Part shown: positions 10,434 to 36,001 of the stretch, piece after piece
Layout: the number at the start of each line of letters is the position of its first letter
How positions within the stretch are numbered: the first letter of the stretch is position 1
NCBI GenBank assembly: GCA_016930295.1
Contig: JAFGHE010000041.1
Coordinates: 1 to 40,140 of the forward strand
Reading direction: 5' to 3'
DNA from: Sedimentisphaerales bacterium
GTDB taxonomy: Bacteria > Planctomycetota > Phycisphaerae > Sedimentisphaerales > SM23-30
DNA length: 40,140 nt
Program-made: the position numbers and the translations under genes
The notes under the pieces: generated by a model
What the model was told of the DNA's origin: nothing
What the model saw: the letters and a program-made list of their open reading frames with translations, nothing else
The model's database searches: none

Positions 10434-10531
10434 TAGGTTACTGTCAACAAGGACTGTGAATGATTGAAACTTTCTTGCTGCCGCTCGGAGAGTAGCAGTA
10501 AGTTTATTGTTGAGCCTGAGAAGGTGTAGTT

Positions 10532-10828
10532 ATGAAACAAGACAACATTGACATAAGTGACAACAAGGAAAGCCGGGAAATGGATGTCCGGCAGTCAGTC
10601 ACATCAGCGTTGGAAAACTTTTTGAATAACAGCGAAGAGGTGGCCGAGCGAATCATGGATGTGGCTCGAATGGCCGGCGCGTATGAGATGTTGTTAAAGG
10701 CTCAAGAAATTCAGTCCTCCGTCGAGGCGGAGAACTCGACGCATGTCGGCTTAGAGATGGGCCAGCCAGTGGAAGGTTTACTTCTGGCAGGCCCAACGTT
10801 AGGAGAAAGTAAACGAGCTGCTCCATAG
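10532..10828 (+). CDS. Hypothetical protein, first gene of flagellar operon
   Basis: 98 aa ORF directly upstream of flgF, same strand. Confidence 0.5.
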   Translation: MKQDNIDISDNKESREMDVRQSVTSALENFLNNSEEVAERIMDVARMAGAYEMLLKAQEIQSSVEAENSTHVGLEMGQPVEGLLLAGPTLGESKRAAP

Positions 10829-10869
10829 ACGTTATGAATCTAAACGGCAAAGAAGCTTAAGGATGAGCT

Positions 10870-11625
10870 ATGTTATATGGAATGTATGTATCTGCAGCCG
10901 GTGCGATGGCCAATTCCTATCGACAGGATGTCATAGCGAATAATCTGGCCAACGTTGAGACAGTTGCTTTCAAGAGCGATCTGGCATTACTCCAGGCCCG
11001 TCGCACCGAAGCGCAATTAAGCGGGCAAAGAACGCACACCACCGCCATGCTAGAAGGCATAGGCGGTGGTATCTTCGCCCTGCCTACGGTCACTGACTTT
11101 TCTCCCGCCACACTTGAGCAAACCGATTCTCCCTATGATCTGGCCCTGACGGACAAAGGTTTTTTCCAGGTTCAAAAGGACGACCAGGTCTGTTACACCC
11201 GTGATGGTCGGCTCACCTACAACACGAATAATGAATTGGTAACGATTGCGGATAAACTGCCGGTGTTAAGTGACGCCGGAAGTCCTATAGTAATTGATCC
11301 TCAATCGGGCAAACTTCATGTGGATGAAGTGGGTAATGTAAGTCAGGGCGATACCGTTATCGCGAAACTGGGGATCGTGGATTTTGAAGATACCCGGGTT
11401 TTGCGTAAGCAGGGTAATAATCTATATATCTCAGAGGATGCTCCGGGTCAACCCACGGAGCCGGTTATCAAACAGGGATTTATCGAGACTTCGGGCGTTA
11501 ATCAGGTGGATCAGTTAACGGCCCTTATCGATACGTCCCGTCAGTTTCAAACCAATCTTACGATGTTACAGATTCAGGATCAGACCCTGGGTTTGGCGGT
11601 AACCCGATTAGGGTCCGTTAGCTAA
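10870..11625 (+). CDS. flgF: Flagellar basal-body rod protein FlgF-like
   Basis: MLYGMYVSAAGAMANSYRQDVIANNLANVETVAFKSD...; C-terminal ...GFIETSGVNQVDQLTALIDTSRQFQTNLTMLQ. Confidence 0.85.
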   Translation: MLYGMYVSAAGAMANSYRQDVIANNLANVETVAFKSDLALLQARRTEAQLSGQRTHTTAMLEGIGGGIFALPTVTDFSPATLEQTDSPYDLALTDKGFFQVQKDDQVCYTRDGRLTYNTNNELVTIADKLPVLSDAGSPIVIDPQSGKLHVDEVGNVSQGDTVIAKLGIVDFEDTRVLRKQGNNLYISEDAPGQPTEPVIKQGFIETSGVNQVDQLTALIDTSRQFQTNLTMLQIQDQTLGLAVTRLGSVS

Positions 11626-20358: not shown

Positions 20359-20446
20359 GGAGAAACCTTAAGATGTATAAGGACACGATGTTATTTTTTA
20401 ATCCGAAACTCGTTCATTGTTTTACGAGACATGGAGGTTTAGCGCC

Positions 20447-20899
20447 ATGAAGGTAGAAACGACACGATTCGGCCAGATTGAAGCGGATGAGAATCGGCTG
20501 ATACAGTTTCCGCACGGGCTGCTGGGCTTTCCGGAACACCGGGAGTATGCCCTGGTCCAGACTAATGATGAGGGAAACTTTTTCTGGCTACAGTCGATTG
20601 ACAGGCCTGAGCTGGCCTTTGTGGTCTGCGATCCCCTGCTGTTTATTCCGGACTATCAGGTACCGGTCAAACAGGAAGATCTGGACAAGATCGACATCAA
20701 GAGTATGAATGATGTCCAGGTACTGATCATCATTAATAAGATTGATCGAACCCTGACCGGGAATCTGCAGGGACCGCTGGTCATTAACGTCGTCAATCGA
20801 CAGGGCCGCCAACTGGTTCTCTCAGAGAAGAAGTACAGTACGCGGCATCCCCTGATCGAACTGGAACCGACCGAACAGGTCATATCGAAGACCGCCTAA
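20447..20899 (+). CDS. fliW: Flagellar assembly factor FliW
   Basis: MKVETTRFGQIEADENRLIQFPHGLLGFPEHREYALVQ...FFWLQSIDRPELAFVVCDPLLFIPDY. ATG at 20447 preferred over ORF start 20417. Confidence 0.93.
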   Translation: MKVETTRFGQIEADENRLIQFPHGLLGFPEHREYALVQTNDEGNFFWLQSIDRPELAFVVCDPLLFIPDYQVPVKQEDLDKIDIKSMNDVQVLIIINKIDRTLTGNLQGPLVINVVNRQGRQLVLSEKKYSTRHPLIELEPTEQVISKTA

Positions 20900-21084
20900 C
20901 CACTGATTATCCGGTTTTCGTGTGGGTTGGCAGTTTGCCAGGGGAGCCTCGGACGGACAGGGTTCGCCAAGGCTGGCCACCATCAGGGTTCGCAAGGAAG
21001 CGAACTGTGTAACGTACAATTAATAACCGGCAAAGACTCCCATCATGGCGGGTTTTGCCCCCAAGGGCTTTAAGGAGCTAGAGG

Positions 21085-21372
21085 ATGCTGGTTCTAAGCA
21101 GACAAAAAGATCAAACGATTATGATCGGTGATAACATCGAGATCACAGTCGTCGATATCCGGGGTGATAAGGTACGAGTCGGTATTACCGCCCCGCAGAA
21201 TATACCGGTGCATCGTAAAGAAGTTTACGAAGCGATCAAACAGGAAAACAAGCAGGCCGCAACCATCAGATTGGAGGATATAACGAATCCCAAGATACCT
21301 TCTTCCTCTGATCAGGAAGGTAAAGACAAGCCGCCTGATAATAACGGACAGTCGCAAGCTGTATCGGAGTGA
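21085..21372 (+). CDS. csrA: Carbon storage regulator CsrA
   Basis: [55 protein letters not shown]; textbook CsrA with ~40 aa C-terminal extension. Confidence 0.97.
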
Positions 21373-21561
21373 TAGACGTTTTTAATGGAATTGAAAATGG
21401 ATAACTATTTAAAACTGAAACAATTAATTCATAGCAGCGTAAAGGCCCGGTCGGGCCCAGGCAGGACGCCGAAGGTTCCGGCCAGGACGGGTGATTTTCG
21501 CTGCCCAGTAGGCAAGATGCCACCACCGAAAGGCGGATTCTAGTCAAGGAGGATTATAACC

Positions 21562-23001: not shown

Positions 23002-23179
23002 AGGTATTATCGGAATAATACCCTATAAACGACGTTCCCATAACATTCAACTGAATGACTGTTATGATTATGAATACAGCAATGAAACTGAGAATTACCC
23101 GAATGGGTCTCATTATGCTTATCCAATAGCTATCCCCGGAACTTTCGTCCTAAGTTCCCGGAAAACAGCTATCCTCCGT

Positions 23180-23218
23180 GACAAGGCACAACTTGCCCAG
23201 TTGTTCCTTGTCTTTTTT
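23180..23218 (+). terminator. Intrinsic terminator after flagellin 1
   Basis: GACAAGG-c-ACAACT-tgccc-AGTTGT-t-CCTTGTC followed by TTTTTT. Confidence 0.9.
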
Positions 23219-23393: not shown

Positions 23394-23420
23394 TAAAGTT
23401 GCCTATCTTCACAAGACGAT
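23394..23420 (+). promoter_or_regulatory. Candidate flagellar sigma-factor (sigma28-like) promoter of flagellin 2
   Basis: TAAAGTTG-N13-GACGAT; the same layout recurs upstream of flagellin 3. Confidence 0.35.
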
Positions 23421-23764
23421 GTGTGCCGTGCAAACATAATTTCCAAAAGCTTCTCGTGAAGCAGCCCAAATTTTGTTTGGAGAAAATGATGAAAACAAGA
23501 ACAGACAACAGAGAGTGGAATTCACAGAGGAGGGGCTGCCTATGAAGTAAACTCCGAGCCGTGTCTGGCGGAAAGCGCGACTCTTTCGTTATAGAATTTG
23601 GTTTGTAGAGTAAGTAAGAAAAAACACCCTGGTGCATACGGCTTTGGCTCTTGGACGGAAACAATAAAATAGTTGGTGTAAAATACTGCAAAAGAAAGCA
23701 GCCGTCAAACCCAAACCCAGCAAGATAAAGTCGTAGGTACCACAACCCGTGGAGGTTGATTACA

Positions 23765-25784: not shown

Positions 25785-25812
25785 TAAAGTTTTTGCCACG
25801 GCCATGACGACA
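25785..25812 (+). promoter_or_regulatory. Candidate flagellar sigma-factor (sigma28-like) promoter of flagellin 3
   Basis: TAAAGTTT-N13-GACGACA, same spacing as the flagellin 2 motif. Confidence 0.35.
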
Positions 25813-25820
25813 ATCTCAAA

Positions 25821-26372
25821 GCAACAGGCATGATTGGAAAAACAATCAATACCGGGTTGATTGTTGGAGCCTAACATGTTGCGAGTCAGTTGAGACTCAA
25901 GGAAGAGCACCGGTTGACACTATTTCGGGCGAAATAGTACGCCGGCTGTGAAACGGAGTTTGCAACGGAGTTGCTACTCATTTCACCTGTCATATAAAGA
26001 TTCTGTCACATGATAGTGTACCGATAATTTCGGTACGATGCTTTCGTGAGGTGGAACCCACCACGCATCTTTAACTTATCTGAATCACTTTTTAAAAATT
26101 CCAAATAATGTGTATATGAATTGGTTTGCTCGCAATAGTAAACCGGTTCAACTGGACAGATTTGATCTGTTACGGCACAGGACGGCGATATCTTGAGATG
26201 CCACTCGAAGTACGAGTAATAGGACGCTAAGTGCATATAGAATTCGCGTCGTACAGATCAGAAAATGGTTTAGTTGCGTAATAACTAAACTGTATTTGGG
26301 CATTAGATCCGACAGACTTGTTCCAGGACGCGTAGTTAGGGTAACGGTCTGTTCACGACGAGGTAAACTCGT
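25821..26372 (+). ncRNA. Hairpin-tiled structured 5' leader of flagellin 3 (or independent structured RNA)
   Basis: Consecutive stems: 25821-25882, 25883-25898, 25910-25945, 25948-25986, 25987-26016, 26018-26036, 26037-26069, 26117-26150, 26155-26171, 26203-26217, 26223-26250, 26268-26290, 26311-26353, 26358-26372. Confidence 0.6.
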
Positions 26373-26396
26373 TCGCCTTGTCACGGAGGATAAGCC

Positions 26397-27866
26397 ATGT
26401 CACGTATCAATACGAACATAGCATCCATGAATGCGATGCACAAGTTGATCGCAAACAACGACGATCTGACTACCAGGATCCAACGATTGTCTTCTGGGTT
26501 GAGAATCAACGTAGGCAAAGACGATCCCGCCGGCCTGATAGGGTCTGAGAATCTCCGGTCTGAAATGGCCGGTCTCAGATCTGCGATAAATAACTCTATC
26601 CGGGCTTCCAGCGTGATCGCGACAGCAGAAGGTGCCTTGAATGAAATCTCCGCCCTACTGATAGACATAAAGGAACTGCTGGTCACATCCGCCAACAAGG
26701 GCGCCCTCTCTGATGAAGAGATAGACGCCAACCAGTTACAGGTAGATTCGGCGATTAGTAGTATTCAACGAATTGCCAATGCCACGGAGTTTGAGGGCAT
26801 CAAGCTACTGAATGGTAACCGGGCCTATACCACCAGTGCGGTCAGTTCCGGGTTTATATCCGAACTGAACATCAATGCCGCCAAGTTGATTGACGGCGCT
26901 ACGATGGGTGTGACGGTTACCGTCACCAGTGCCGCCGATACCGGCCAGGTCTATATCAGTACCAATGCCAGTCTCAAATTATCCGCGGCACTTAGCATTC
27001 GGGTCGGCTCCAATCGGGGTACCACCGATCTTACCTTTGCCGCCTGCGCCAGTCTGACCAATGTGATATATGGTATCAACCAGGTCAGAGAGATAACCGG
27101 TGTATCCGCGGCTTTGAGTACGGACGGCGCCCAGGGGTGGGCCAGGCTGCGCAGTGTGGACTTTGGCACTGATGCCTACGTAAGTGTTAAGACCTTAAAC
27201 GTGCAGGGCACGATGACAGGGACTGTTATTAACACGAGCGTGGCAGGCACTAACAACACCGACGCCAAGGATTATGGTGTCGATGCCAGGGCCAATATCA
27301 ACGGAACGTCAGCCATTGCCAAGGGTAAGAATCTGACAATTCGGACCAATATGGTAGATGCGGAGATTGAATTAACCGCGGCGATCGCCTTATCGACTAC
27401 AGATCAAACGACTCTCTTTGGCATTACCGCCGGGGGTTCTGATTTTGCCATTGGGGCACGGGTCGATGCTATCGGTCTGGAATCGGTAGGTATCGAAAGT
27501 GTGGCTCCCAGTCAGCTCGGACACCCGGACGATGGGTATTTACATACCCTCAAGAGTGGTCAGACAAACGCTCTCTCGGGAGACAACCTATACACCGCGC
27601 AACGGATCGTGGATTACGCGATCAAGGACATCAGTACGTTGCGGGGTCGGTTAGGCGCATTCCAGAAGAATGTTCTTGAGACGAACATTAATAGTCTCAG
27701 GGTGACTCTGGAAAATGTGACGGCATCCGAGTCGGCGATCCGAGATACTGACTTTGCCAATGAGACAGCTGCTTTGACAAGATCACAGATATTGGTCCAG
27801 GCCAATACGTCTGTGTTATCCATAGCTAACAGTTTGCCGCAGAGCGTCCTGGCGCTGCTCGGCTAA
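26397..27866 (+). CDS. Flagellin 3
   Basis: MSRINTNIASMNAMHKLIANNDDLTTRIQRLSSGLRINVGKDDPAGLIGSENLR...; SD CACGGAGGAT upstream. Confidence 0.95.
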   Translation: MSRINTNIASMNAMHKLIANNDDLTTRIQRLSSGLRINVGKDDPAGLIGSENLRSEMAGLRSAINNSIRASSVIATAEGALNEISALLIDIKELLVTSANKGALSDEEIDANQLQVDSAISSIQRIANATEFEGIKLLNGNRAYTTSAVSSGFISELNINAAKLIDGATMGVTVTVTSAADTGQVYISTNASLKLSAALSIRVGSNRGTTDLTFAACASLTNVIYGINQVREITGVSAALSTDGAQGWARLRSVDFGTDAYVSVKTLNVQGTMTGTVINTSVAGTNNTDAKDYGVDARANINGTSAIAKGKNLTIRTNMVDAEIELTAAIALSTTDQTTLFGITAGGSDFAIGARVDAIGLESVGIESVAPSQLGHPDDGYLHTLKSGQTNALSGDNLYTAQRIVDYAIKDISTLRGRLGAFQKNVLETNINSLRVTLENVTASESAIRDTDFANETAALTRSQILVQANTSVLSIANSLPQSVLALLG

Positions 27867-27990: not shown

Positions 27991-28116
27991 GAATTGAGTT
28001 CACACGGCCAGGTGGACTCGATTCAAGACCGAGGCAGAGCAGGACGATTGCGGAGCTCGAAATTGGACTGCTCGCTCGGTTCGACGAGAGTTTCTTTACG
28101 GCATAGGAAATTCTCG
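27991..28116 (+). ncRNA. Hairpin-tiled structured RNA downstream of flagellin 3
   Basis: 13-bp stem 27991-28003/28012-28024 (2 G-U), 6+6 bp stem 28028-28080, 10-bp stem 28085-28094/28107-28116 (1 G-U), then directly the terminator. Confidence 0.55.
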
Positions 28117-28176
28117 AAGGCCCGGGCCTCCAGCAGGGAAGAATAAAACCTGTTGTGAGGCCTTGGCCGTTTTTAT
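28117..28176 (+). terminator. Intrinsic terminator after flagellin 3
   Basis: GGCC-cg-GGCCTC-CAGCAGG ... CCTGTTG-t-GAGGCC-tt-GGCC then GTTTTTATT. Confidence 0.8.
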
Positions 28177-28188
28177 TGCGCCTCGTCG

Positions 28189-28266
28189 GATGCCACCGTC
28201 AAAAGTGGATATTGCCACTTAAAATCGTTGTTTTAAAATCGTTCGAGATACTTTTGACGCTTGCAT
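28189..28266 (-). repeat. MITE-like element, copy C (inverted, 78 bp, ~11 bp internal deletion)
   Basis: GATGCCACCGTCAAAAG ... CTTTTGACGCTTGCATC; flanked on both sides by CGTCG. Confidence 0.7.
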
Positions 28267-28670
28267 CCGTCGAACCGCTATAATCATCCACACATTTCAA
28301 AGCCGCATTTCCTAGGATGGTATTTCTTCTATTTCAAGTATGAAGCATGCTAACGCATGCTATAAAGTGCACTGCGGGGTTAAAAAACTTTTCTCATTTT
28401 TTTATCCTTTATAATAAACAATGACGAAAAAGTAATAGAAGATCACGTAAAGAAATATTTTATCCAAGTATCGTATATTACCTATTTAACCTAATCTATA
28501 GATTTTTACACACATTGTTTTTTCAATGATAACTTGGGTAATAGCAAATACTTGTGAATAAAAAAAATTTAAAAATATCGAAATTTAATTTGCTTCATCG
28601 AAAATCTGTTATAATATTAAATAGAAGAAAAATATAGTTGAAATCGGAATTCTCTTTTCTCCTCCTTTGC

Positions 28671-33100: not shown

Positions 33101-34066
33101 ATGAACCGTGCAAACTATTTTAACTTCATTGAAGAAAAACTCTGTTTGCTTGCTCTCCGCATAGAGATGCGAGGGGGCTTGAATATTCTGGACCATCATC
33201 TGCATTCAGAGAATTTTTATCTACACTTCTTCAACTTGCTCTTTGATTGGCAGCTTCTAAACATTAATACTGTACAACAAAATGCTGCAGGTATTGATTT
33301 AATTGATACTACAAATAAGATAATTGTACAGGTTTCTGCCACTGCAACAAAGCAGAAGATTGAATCAGCCCTTGCTAAAGACCTTTCTATCTACCAGGGC
33401 TATTCCTTCAAGTTTATATCCATCTCTAAAAACGCAAAGGATTTACGAACTAAAAAATTTATGAATCCTCATAATCTAATATTTTCACCCGAAAAGGACA
33501 TTTTTGACATCTCCTCTCTTTTAGCATTAATTAAGGAGCTGAAGGCAACCCGGCTGAAAGAGATCTATGAATTTATAAAAGATGAACTCAAGAGCGAACC
33601 TGATCCAGATAAAGTAGAGTCCAACCTGACGACAATCATTAAAATTCTGTCCAAAGTGGATTGGGAGCAAGAGATACTGGGCTTTGAAACTGTACCATTC
33701 GATATTGAAGCAAAGATTACGTACAATCAACTGGATACCGCCAGAATTCTTATCGACGAATACAAAATCCACCATAGTCGCATTAATAAGATCTACTCTG
33801 ACTTTAACAAACAAGGTGTGAACAAAAGTTTTTCAATTTTAAATGGCATTCGCAGTGAGTATTTAAGTCTTAATTCAGTTGATTCTCCCGATCAATGTTT
33901 CTTCACGATTATCAAAAAAGTTGTTGAGAAGATTCGTGCAAGCGCTAATTACACTCCTATTCCTGATGAAGAACTTGAGTTATGTGTGCAAATACTTGTT
34001 GTTGACGTCTTCATACGATGCAAAATATTTGAAAATCCTATAGGAAATAACAATGCTTGTTCCTGA
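33101..34066 (+). CDS. SMEK-domain protein of an ABC-3C system
   Basis: MNRANYFNFIEEKLCLLALRIEMRGGLNILDHHLHSENFYLHFFNLLFDWQLLNINTVQQNAAGIDLIDTTNKIIVQVSATATKQKIESAL: SMEK-type N-terminus. Confidence 0.7.
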   Translation: MNRANYFNFIEEKLCLLALRIEMRGGLNILDHHLHSENFYLHFFNLLFDWQLLNINTVQQNAAGIDLIDTTNKIIVQVSATATKQKIESALAKDLSIYQGYSFKFISISKNAKDLRTKKFMNPHNLIFSPEKDIFDISSLLALIKELKATRLKEIYEFIKDELKSEPDPDKVESNLTTIIKILSKVDWEQEILGFETVPFDIEAKITYNQLDTARILIDEYKIHHSRINKIYSDFNKQGVNKSFSILNGIRSEYLSLNSVDSPDQCFFTIIKKVVEKIRASANYTPIPDEELELCVQILVVDVFIRCKIFENPIGNNNACS

Positions 34067-34280
34067 TAATATACACCCCGAGCAGACCATTTACTACAAC
34101 GGTGCTTTTGTGCTGAAGGCGATTAAAACGCATCAGGTGATGGATATGCTCGATTTATACATCCAGACAAAGAGTGAGCGAGAAATGAGTATGCCTGTTT
34201 TTATACTATGTCTCGATTGGCTTTTTCTCCTTAATTTGGTTACAATGAATGACAACGGCAAGGTTGAACTATGTTCTTAA
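34053..34280 (+). CDS. ABC-3C middle component (MC6-like small protein)
   Basis: 75 aa MLVPDNIHPEQTIYYNGAFVLKAIKTHQVMDMLDLY...; overlaps both neighbouring genes. Confidence 0.65.
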   Translation: MLVPDNIHPEQTIYYNGAFVLKAIKTHQVMDMLDLYIQTKSEREMSMPVFILCLDWLFLLNLVTMNDNGKVELCS

Positions 34281-36001
34281 AATCACTAACAATTACTCAT
34301 GGCGATGGCGCAATAATCAGAGACATCCGATTCCACTCAGGTCTTAACCTTATAGTTGACGAAACTCCAGTAGTAAGCGGTAAAGAGACAGGAAACAACG
34401 TTGGTAAAACAACGGTCCTGAAATTGGTAGATTTCTGTCTTGGTGCTAAGGCAAAGGGAATATACTCAGACTACGAAAACAAACGGAACGAATACACGCT
34501 TGTCAAAGAGTATCTTATTAAGAACAAGGTGTGTATTATACTTGTTCTCACGGATGATCTTTTACATGAAGAGTCTCAGAAAGTATGCATTGAACGAAAC
34601 TTCTTGCCCCGTAAAGACAAAATATTACGCATAGACGGTAATAATAAAACTGAAGATGAGTTTGAAGAAACACTAACAGAACTTCTATTTCCAGGACATT
34701 ATGGCAGTAAACCAACATTTCGACAAATTATTGCTCATAATATCCGCTATAAGGATTTGAGTATTAATAATACGATTAAGAATCTCGACCACTATACCCG
34801 TGATGATGAGTACGAGACACTCTATCTCTTCCTTTTTGGTTGTGATTTTGAGCAAGGAGATACCAAGCAGGAACTGCGTTCTCAAATAAGTATCGAGGAA
34901 AAATTTAAGTCACGCCTCGAATCTGAACAGACTAAATCAGCATATGAGACTGCGTTAGCTCTTCTTCAAGCAGAAATTGAAGAAATTGAGCTCAAAAAGG
35001 CATCACTCAACCTTAATCCTAATTTTGAATCCGATTTGGACAAACTTAATAAAATCAAATATCAGGTAAATCTTACTTCATCTGAAATTAGTAGACTTGA
35101 ACTTCGGAAAGATTTGATTTTAGAAGCCCAAATGGAAATAAAATCGGGAGTTTCTACCATCGATTTGCAACAATTACAACAGATATATCAGCAGGCAACA
35201 TCTTTGGTAACTGGAATACAAAAGACTTTTCAGGAACTTCATGATTTTCACAATCGTATGGTGGAGGCCAAGATTCAGTTCATTACCCAGGATTTACCGA
35301 GGATTGATTCGAAACTTACTAAGCAACGTGAGCATTTGAACCGCCTTTTGGCTGAAGAAACCAAATTAAGTAAGACTATCATCCAAAGTGATTCCTTTGA
35401 TGTACTTGAGCAATTGATTACCGAGCTCAATGCAAAATACCATACAAAAGGTGAATATGAAAATACTCTGCGACAATTGAGTTCTGTAGAATCAAAGCTA
35501 ACCGAACTCAATAATAAACTTATCAAAATTGATGATGAACTATTTTCTGATGATTTCGCTCTTAAAATCCGAGAACAGGTCGATAAATTCAACATACATT
35601 TTGCATCTGTGTCACATGAACTTTATGGTGAAAAATATGCTTTGAAGTTTGATCAAAAAATAAAAAAAGGACGTCGTCTTTACGAATTCTCAGCGTTTAA
35701 CCTCAATTTCAGTACAGGAAAAAAACAGGGCGAAATATCCTGTTTTGATATCGCATATACGCTCTTTGCTGACGAAGAAAATATCCCTTGTATGCACTTT
35801 CTCCTTAATGATAAAAAAGAACTAATGCATGATAATCAACTCTTGAGAATATCCAATCTTGTCAATACAAAGGGGATACAGTTTGTAGCATCAATTCTGA
35901 AAGATAAGTTGCCAAAAGAGTTAAATAAAGATGAGTATGTGGTGCTGAAATTGTCACAGGACGACAAGCTTTTCAGGATTGAAAAGGAAGTTGATGCTTA
36001 A
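34271..36001 (+). CDS. DUF2326-type ABC/SMC-like ATPase of an ABC-3C system
   Basis: Walker A GNNVGKTT, long coiled-coil, C-terminal ATPase half (GEISCFDIAYTLFADEENIPCMHFLLNDKKELMHDNQLLRI). Confidence 0.8.
   Translation: MFLKSLTITHGDGAIIRDIRFHSGLNLIVDETPVVSGKETGNNVGKTTVLKLVDFCLGAKAKGIYSDYENKRNEYTLVKEYLIKNKVCIILVLTDDLLHEESQKVCIERNFLPRKDKILRIDGNNKTEDEFEETLTELLFPGHYGSKPTFRQIIAHNIRYKDLSINNTIKNLDHYTRDDEYETLYLFLFGCDFEQGDTKQELRSQISIEEKFKSRLESEQTKSAYETALALLQAEIEEIELKKASLNLNPNFESDLDKLNKIKYQVNLTSSEISRLELRKDLILEAQMEIKSGVSTIDLQQLQQIYQQATSLVTGIQKTFQELHDFHNRMVEAKIQFITQDLPRIDSKLTKQREHLNRLLAEETKLSKTIIQSDSFDVLEQLITELNAKYHTKGEYENTLRQLSSVESKLTELNNKLIKIDDELFSDDFALKIREQVDKFNIHFASVSHELYGEKYALKFDQKIKKGRRLYEFSAFNLNFSTGKKQGEISCFDIAYTLFADEENIPCMHFLLNDKKELMHDNQLLRISNLVNTKGIQFVASILKDKLPKELNKDEYVVLKLSQDDKLFRIEKEVDA

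Follow-up and report, generated by a model that had tools for sequence, protein, structure and literature searches.

A conserved structured 5' leader on a planctomycete flagellin message, with candidate CsrA sites

The flagellin locus and the stems of its leader

The window, by which we mean the whole 40,140-nt stretch of Sedimentisphaerales DNA that was analysed, carries fliW and csrA immediately 5' of a flagellin cluster. The third flagellin has a leader (25813-26396) that fills the space from a sigma-28-like promoter to the ATG. The landmarks of the locus are as follows.

20417-20899 (+): fliW (Pfam FliW); the listed ORF starts at TTG, the likely start being ATG 20448
21085-21372 (+): csrA (Pfam CsrA, 88.5 bits)
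21541-21556 (+): ribosome-binding hairpin of flagellin 1, UAGUC[AAGGAG]GAUUA; this hexaloop type repeats in three relatives checked
25785-25812 (+): sigma-28 (FliA)-like promoter, TAAAGTTT-N13-GACGACA, kept in 10/10 aligned leaders
26397-27866 (+): flagellin 3, the gene presumed to be under control, with Flagellin_N and Flagellin_C domains, both full

The promoter-like motif, already pointed out in the initial annotation, is present and conserved in relatives, where its common form is TAAAGTTTT-N-(G/A)(T/A)CGA, and an upstream block, AAATATTATCGC, is kept together with it in 10/10 aligned leaders. Transcription would start a few bases 3' of the motif. Homologues of the leader lie directly 5' of flagellin genes in 10 genomes, while the homologue in L064 comes after a flagellin gene, at the end of a contig. 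Conserved leader sequence continues unbroken into the flagellin start codon, with no sign of a stand-alone transcript with its own terminator, and the leader presumably belongs to the flagellin mRNA by co-transcription. A coding explanation was rejected: there is no conserved ORF, and the diverged stretches differ in length among relatives. That no ORF accounts for the region, as first proposed, agrees with the absence of any ORF of at least 60 aa lying wholly within the leader on the + strand.

Flagellin 2 (23394-23764, +) has a similar promoter-like motif and a leader of about 340 nt, which folds hardly better than shuffles (z -1.2) and is without a Shine-Dalgarno hexaloop. Elsewhere in the window, between uvrA and lysS, an SMEK/CTD10 protein adjoins a DUF2326 protein (33101-36001, +), a pair resembling the ABC-three-component type and possibly with a role in defence.

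The leader folds at -186 kcal/mol (z -5.20), and 0/100 shuffles were as stable in the comparison with shuffled controls for which the initial annotation had called; homologous leaders have z values from -2.4 to -7.1. Along the 40-kb window, however, 34 sampled segments gave a mean z of -1.9 (sd 2.0) with a few at -5 to -6.7. Because these few reach a similar z, fold energy alone is insufficient proof, and the case for structure is built on conservation and compensatory changes, not on energy. Two other segments of the window, 28081-28665 (intergenic, 3' of flagellin 3) and 10531-11115, have z values of about -5 and -6.7. The elements of the leader are listed below; P denotes stems, and HA, HB and HC are hexaloop hairpins.

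25818-25825 (+): 5' conserved block AAAGCAAC, (A/G)GC(A/G)A(C/U) in 11/11
25827-25880 (+): P1, irregular hairpin with a conserved CAAU-UCCGG-GUUG tip
25883-25898 (+): P2, GAGUC/GACUC hairpin, kept in 10/11; excludes HA
25896-25907 (+): HA, CUC[AAGGAA]GAG, ANGGAN hexaloop, candidate CsrA site
25910-25945 (+): P3, covarying hairpin flanked by HA and HB; 8/8 pairs changed on both sides
25947-25964 (+): HB, UGUGAA[ACGGAG]UUUGCA, ANGGAN hexaloop, candidate CsrA site
25948-25986 (+): P4, nested stem, placed by model in 11/11; middle pairs weak
26003-26016 (+): P5, CUGUC/GAUAG hairpin; double substitutions in 6/6 pairs, 11 leaders
26018-26036 (+): P6, GUACCGA/UCGGUAC hairpin; 9 leaders, 100% paired, 50% with swapped arms
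26037-26069 (+): P7, GAUGC..GGUGG-AAC-CCACC..GCAUC; base covaries, tip GAGGUGGAACC nearly invariant
26117-26150 (+): P9, 14-bp hairpin; double substitutions in 10/12 pairs, 9 leaders
26171-26253 (+): P10, two stacked stems around a 5' bulge that has CAGGACG (26178-26184)
26268-26290 (+): P11, GUUUAGUU/AACUAAAC hairpin; predicted in most relatives, alignment uncertain
26313-26351 (+): P12, CAGAC/GUCUG stem around CCAGGACG; 3/5 pairs double-substituted, 8 leaders
26358-26372 (+): P13, ACGAG/CUCGU hairpin; 10 leaders, 100% paired, 70% with swapped arms
26377-26394 (+): HC, CUUGUC[ACGGAG]GAUAAG, hexaloop with Shine-Dalgarno GGAGG, candidate CsrA repression site

The initial annotation had described an almost gap-free chain of hairpins. 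The chain exists, and of its stems those corresponding to P4, P6, P7, P9 and P11 are all present and, with the exception of P11, clearly conserved where they would be expected by homology; 'almost gap-free' slightly overstates it, since 26070-26116 is A/U-rich and mostly unpaired, both here and in relatives. The stem at 26117-26150 is real, but it has 14 bp instead of the 11 first reported, and a CTGTCAT/ATGATAG pairing proposed at 25987-26016 found no support, the conserved stem there being the shorter CTGTC/GATAG of P5. The G-U pairs once taken as a sign of selection on RNA are weak by themselves, and it is covariation that carries the argument.

The P4 tip, GCAAC-GGA-GUUGC (25962-25974), is near-invariant, and the loops of P1, P5, P6, P9 and P13 contain no conserved GGA. 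In this genome the tip of P10 bears an insert of about 40 nt with a further AGGACG (26221-26226), and the inner stem of P10 is weaker here than in other leaders. The possibility that P10 is a mobile or repeated element was rejected, as each genome has one strong copy, in the leader. Five or six pairs with GUUG(C/U) are possible for the 5' block in 11/11 leaders; speculatively, this block could pair with the GUUGCU of P4 once HB forms (P0).

Conservation and covariation of the leader

Homologous leaders of 500-600 nt were found, in single copy, in 11/13 genomes of one family (f1) of Sedimentisphaerales (Planctomycetota), of which the source genome is a member. A covariance model built from P2-P4 of five leaders recovered the six held-out leaders with one match per genome, and each of these gained 3-18 bits from structure relative to scoring without it. 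The same model gave no convincing match in the order's remaining 148 genomes, two weak matches outside the family being rejected as chance matches inside coding sequence, and the leader was found in none of 397 genomes sampled over the class. BLAST with the leader returned relatives within the family only, with identity as low as about 66% where BLAST can align. A scan for the conserved ribosome-binding block gave nine carriers, all uncultured Sedimentisphaerales or Phycisphaerae (Planctomycetota), and no match in viral contigs. The two family members without the leader are G005, which has no FliW, no CsrA and one divergent flagellin only, and G007, whose flagellin is cut off by the contig end.

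At gathering as well as lax thresholds, no Rfam family matched, including CsrB/RsmX/Y/Z, GOLLD/ROOL/OLE and all riboswitch models; the best lax match (SNORD47, E 0.11) is attributable to chance. Searches of open-access papers dealing with CsrA/FliW, leaders of flagellin genes, structured RNA and Planctomycetes brought up no mention of this RNA. The Rfam check proposed earlier thus left the leader unaccounted for by any known family, and the conjecture of an undescribed large RNA holds in that this is a new family, but not as regards a link to the GOLLD, ROOL or OLE types. We regard the leader as a new RNA family and as an enlarged form of a known type of regulation.

When leaders were aligned up to the start codon, the blocks AAAGCAAC, CCGGGUUG, GACUCANGGANGAGC, GUGAAACGGAGUUUGCAACGGAGUUGC, GAGGUGGAACC, CAGGACGGCGAA, CCAGGACG and CCUUGUCACGGAGGAU proved common to relatives. 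The stretches separating these blocks are strongly diverged in sequence, yet they form the same stems. Across 16 helix segments placed by hand, 846 of 883 cells (95.8%) hold standard pairs. Swapping arms between species brought pairing down to 47-70% for P1b, P3, P5, P6, P9, outer P10 and P13, in all of which most pairs are double-substituted; P1b is the extreme case, with 100% of cells paired and 47% after swapping. In the model-fitted alignment both sides had changed in 12/26 pairs (0/500 shuffles), and shifting the partner by one base lowered pairing from 91% to 40-44%. For P10, a sequence-only alignment of relatives gave 9/14 pairs changed on both sides (1/500 shuffles), and a longest-stem test per region lent moderate support (combined p 0.011, 0.0033 and 0.0013).

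The covariation among homologues to which the initial annotation had looked therefore appears as compensatory changes in the placed helices, but when 10 leaders in a plain MAFFT alignment were put to a tree-based, R-scape-like test, no pair scored below E 0.4, a result that we read as lack of power with ten diverged sequences. Because that test found none, the covariation case rests on hand- or model-placed helices, and placement by hand is a bias that cannot be fully removed. The recurrence of the same stems across very different sequences, with compensatory changes, is on this comparative evidence that of an evolutionarily conserved structure.

Candidate CsrA sites and the fliW-csrA neighbourhood

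A high-affinity CsrA site is a hairpin with an ANGGAN hexaloop, the CsrB repeat reads CAGGA(U/A/C)G, and CsrA can bridge sites 10-63 nt apart (PMC7652899). Each leader has 2-4 ANGGAN hexaloops, against 0.11-0.21 (about 0.15) expected from shuffles. HA occurs as CUC[A(A/U)GGAN]GAG in 10/11 leaders, its stem being constant and its N positions varying as in the CsrA consensus. HB is kept with 3-7 bp in 10/11 leaders, in most as GUGAA[ANGGAN]UUUGC, and is absent in L035. In L064 it reads GCAAA[AGGGAA]UUUGC, where two compensatory pairs improve HB while breaking outer pairs of P4, and HB is probably real for this reason. The most conserved element of the leader is HC, which overlaps the Shine-Dalgarno sequence and has an invariant ACGGAG loop in 10/10 leaders, closed as UC[ACGGAG]GA, on a stem of 3-6 bp.

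Nearly all leaders have CAGGACG, or a near variant of it, in the bulge of P10 and in the loop of P12. The P12 copy (26324-26330), a candidate CsrA site, is CAGGACG in 8/10 leaders, CGGGACG in L032 and CAGGACU in L031, and lies 59 nt from the Shine-Dalgarno GGA here and 59-69 nt in relatives, at the edge of the bridging range; HA and HB are spaced 54 nt apart. CAGGANG was rejected as evidence by itself, as it is too common in coding sequence (CAGGAHG has 34 matches in the window, often in coding sequence, against 13 expected). Altogether a leader has 6-8 candidate sites, or more, and its strongest conservation falls on the GGA elements. HA cannot coexist with P2, nor HB with P4. The computed cost of forming them, 0-5 kcal/mol for HA and 1-8 kcal/mol for HB, is within the range that protein binding could pay, which suggests a fold switch.

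Similar hairpins mark the neighbouring genes, and 6 of the 9 ANGGAN hairpins on the + strand of the window are at fliW, csrA, flagellin 1 and the flagellin-3 leader. The Shine-Dalgarno sequence of fliW lies within the hexaloop AGAC[AUGGAG]GUUU (20427-20440), and the ribosome-binding site of flagellin 1 has the same architecture as HC. The csrA leader contains GGUUCGC[AAGGAA]GCGAACU (20987-21006, +), and in 5 relatives its stem changes while the ANGGAN loop is kept (G006: GCUCAC[AUGGAU]GUGAGC), making it a likely site of CsrA autoregulation. CsrA of the window retains L4 and R44 (residues from PMC7652899), and one csrA gene only was found in the source genome.

FliW was present in 12/13 genomes of family f1 and in 0/55 from the other families of the order, whereas CsrA is nearly universal (63/68 genomes of the order examined). 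The leader occurs in 11/12 FliW genomes, the 12th being the one whose flagellin is cut by a contig end. Since FliW is limited to this family although CsrA is nearly universal, the leader tracks FliW. Among flagellins of the other families, 0/25 had a Shine-Dalgarno hexaloop, the sequence there being a plain Shine-Dalgarno.

Two further observations concern flagellin 1. Its leader has two CAGGACG motifs (21462 and 21483) within 21455-21492 (+). In the 3' region of its message, where the stem of the rho-independent terminator begins, TATCCTCCGTGACAAGGC (23170-23187, +) is perfectly complementary over 18 nt to the ribosome-binding site of flagellin 3, GCCTTGTCACGGAGGATA (genome-wide chance E 0.19). 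It could act in trans as an antisense element; the loci of relatives that were examined showed no counterpart.

Proposed role and comparison with known systems

What the analysis shows is conserved structure, conserved motif placement, the gene context and co-occurrence with FliW. We consider it likely that a flagellin mRNA transcribed through sigma-28 has this region as its 5' leader, and that the leader is the RNA component of a circuit in which FliW and CsrA keep flagellin in homeostasis, and we infer CsrA binding, repression, a switch and a sponge role from the candidate sites. CsrA dimers would occupy the ANGGAN hexaloops and CAGGACG elements, and at HC would cover the Shine-Dalgarno sequence and block translation, while the upstream sites would load and bridge dimers, P12 from about 59 nt away and HA and HB as a pair brought together by P3. 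Export of flagellin would free FliW, which would then strip CsrA from the message and allow translation to begin. On this reading the leader looks like a greatly expanded form of the RNA switch by which bacteria keep flagellin production in step with the building of the flagellum. In this circuit the covarying stems would be a scaffold that presents and spaces the CsrA sites, HA/P2 and HB/P4 may toggle between a closed and a CsrA-ready fold, and so abundant a message with 6-8 sites may in addition sequester CsrA. Two options of the initial annotation, 'regulatory leader' and 'CsrA-binding platform', fit best together, given the hexaloops, one of them on the Shine-Dalgarno sequence, the CAGGACG elements, the adjoining fliW-csrA and the tracking of FliW, with binding at what are candidate sites.

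CsrA repression alone does not explain 500 nt of conserved structure, because hag and flaA are controlled through two sites and have far shorter leaders. The extra structure may serve as a CsrA sponge within the message, may be a scaffold that includes a fold switch, or may have an unrelated part in stabilising or sensing. The sponge could even be the main job, as in a CsrB fused to an mRNA, with regulation of its own gene secondary, and this we regard as a possible but less favoured account; equally tentative is its consequence, that transcription of flagellin would relieve CsrA repression of other late flagellar genes. Having 6-8 or more candidate sites goes beyond one gene's need, two CAGGACG elements agree with the CsrB repeat, a single csrA gene was found in this genome, and titration has a precedent in Campylobacter flaA (PMC4894983). 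However, it is the Shine-Dalgarno hexaloop HC that is most conserved, which argues for cis control, and most stems are without a site.

Somewhat more doubtful is that the leader of about 580 nt is target, sponge and switch at once, a platform on which several CsrA dimers assemble and whose loading refolds the leader and passes to the Shine-Dalgarno hairpin. The mutual exclusion of HA and HB with P2 and P4 would suit such a design, as would the 5' AGCAAC, a possible alternative partner of GUUGCU. It is rather unlikely that the stems sense temperature, a metabolite or translation of a neighbouring message, or shield the abundant flagellin mRNA from nucleases, with the CsrA sites a minor add-on. 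P1, P5-P7, P9 and P13 do lack conserved GGA in their loops, and blocks without GGA (the CCGGG tip of P1, parts of the P7 tip) are strongly conserved, but no Rfam riboswitch is resembled, the GGA elements are conserved most strongly, and presence of the leader tracks FliW. Chance inverted repeats or a functionless relic of a mobile element can be practically dismissed, for although folding better than shuffles is also seen elsewhere in the window, the conservation data contradict it, with architecture, position and motifs alike in 11 genomes, compensatory substitutions and a single copy per genome.

This would be, as far as could be found, the first description of a structured flagellin leader from Planctomycetota, unusual also for its size, and it would extend the FliW-CsrA checkpoint to that phylum with an RNA far more elaborate than those of Bacillus and Campylobacter. 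Two questions become testable: what need a checkpoint on one gene has for 500 nt of structure, and whether organisms that have FliW but no CsrB carry a CsrA sponge inside the flagellin mRNA. For studying CsrA recognition, a set of covarying natural variants is at hand in the leader, the hexaloop ribosome-binding sites and the csrA hairpin.

GOLLD, ROOL and OLE are likewise large and highly structured, but the present RNA always lies directly 5' of one flagellin gene, matches none of them in Rfam and does not suggest an independent transcript. The sRNAs CsrB/CsrC and RsmX/Y/Z consist, as it does, of successive hairpins in which CAGGA(U/A/C)G or ANGGAN elements repeat; they are independent sRNAs with more sites, in contrast to an mRNA leader without an Rfam match. 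FliW is anti-correlated with the BarA-UvrY system, which transcribes CsrB (PMC4682653), and the host here has FliW. The flaA leader of Campylobacter jejuni, an organism with FliW and without CsrB-type sRNAs, likewise belongs to a sigma-28 flagellin and has GGA hexaloops close to the start codon; with its two hexaloops this leader is both target and titrator of CsrA (PMC4894983). The hexaloops are adjacent, 21 nt apart, and probably take one dimer, whereas the planctomycete leader could take several; titration of CsrA is shown for flaA alone. Similar in plan is the hag leader of the Bacillus subtilis FliW-CsrA-Hag checkpoint, where repression uses two CsrA sites, one of them on the Shine-Dalgarno sequence (PMC7652899). 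Both are flagellin leaders with a CsrA-type site on the Shine-Dalgarno sequence and another upstream, both have FliW and CsrA encoded with flagellar genes, and in both the C-terminus of CsrA is extended. CsrA binding is demonstrated for hag, while the sites in the planctomycete leader are candidates from sequence; and the hag leader is short, with two sites, whereas the planctomycete RNA has 6-8 candidate sites and at least 12 conserved helices in 500-600 nt.
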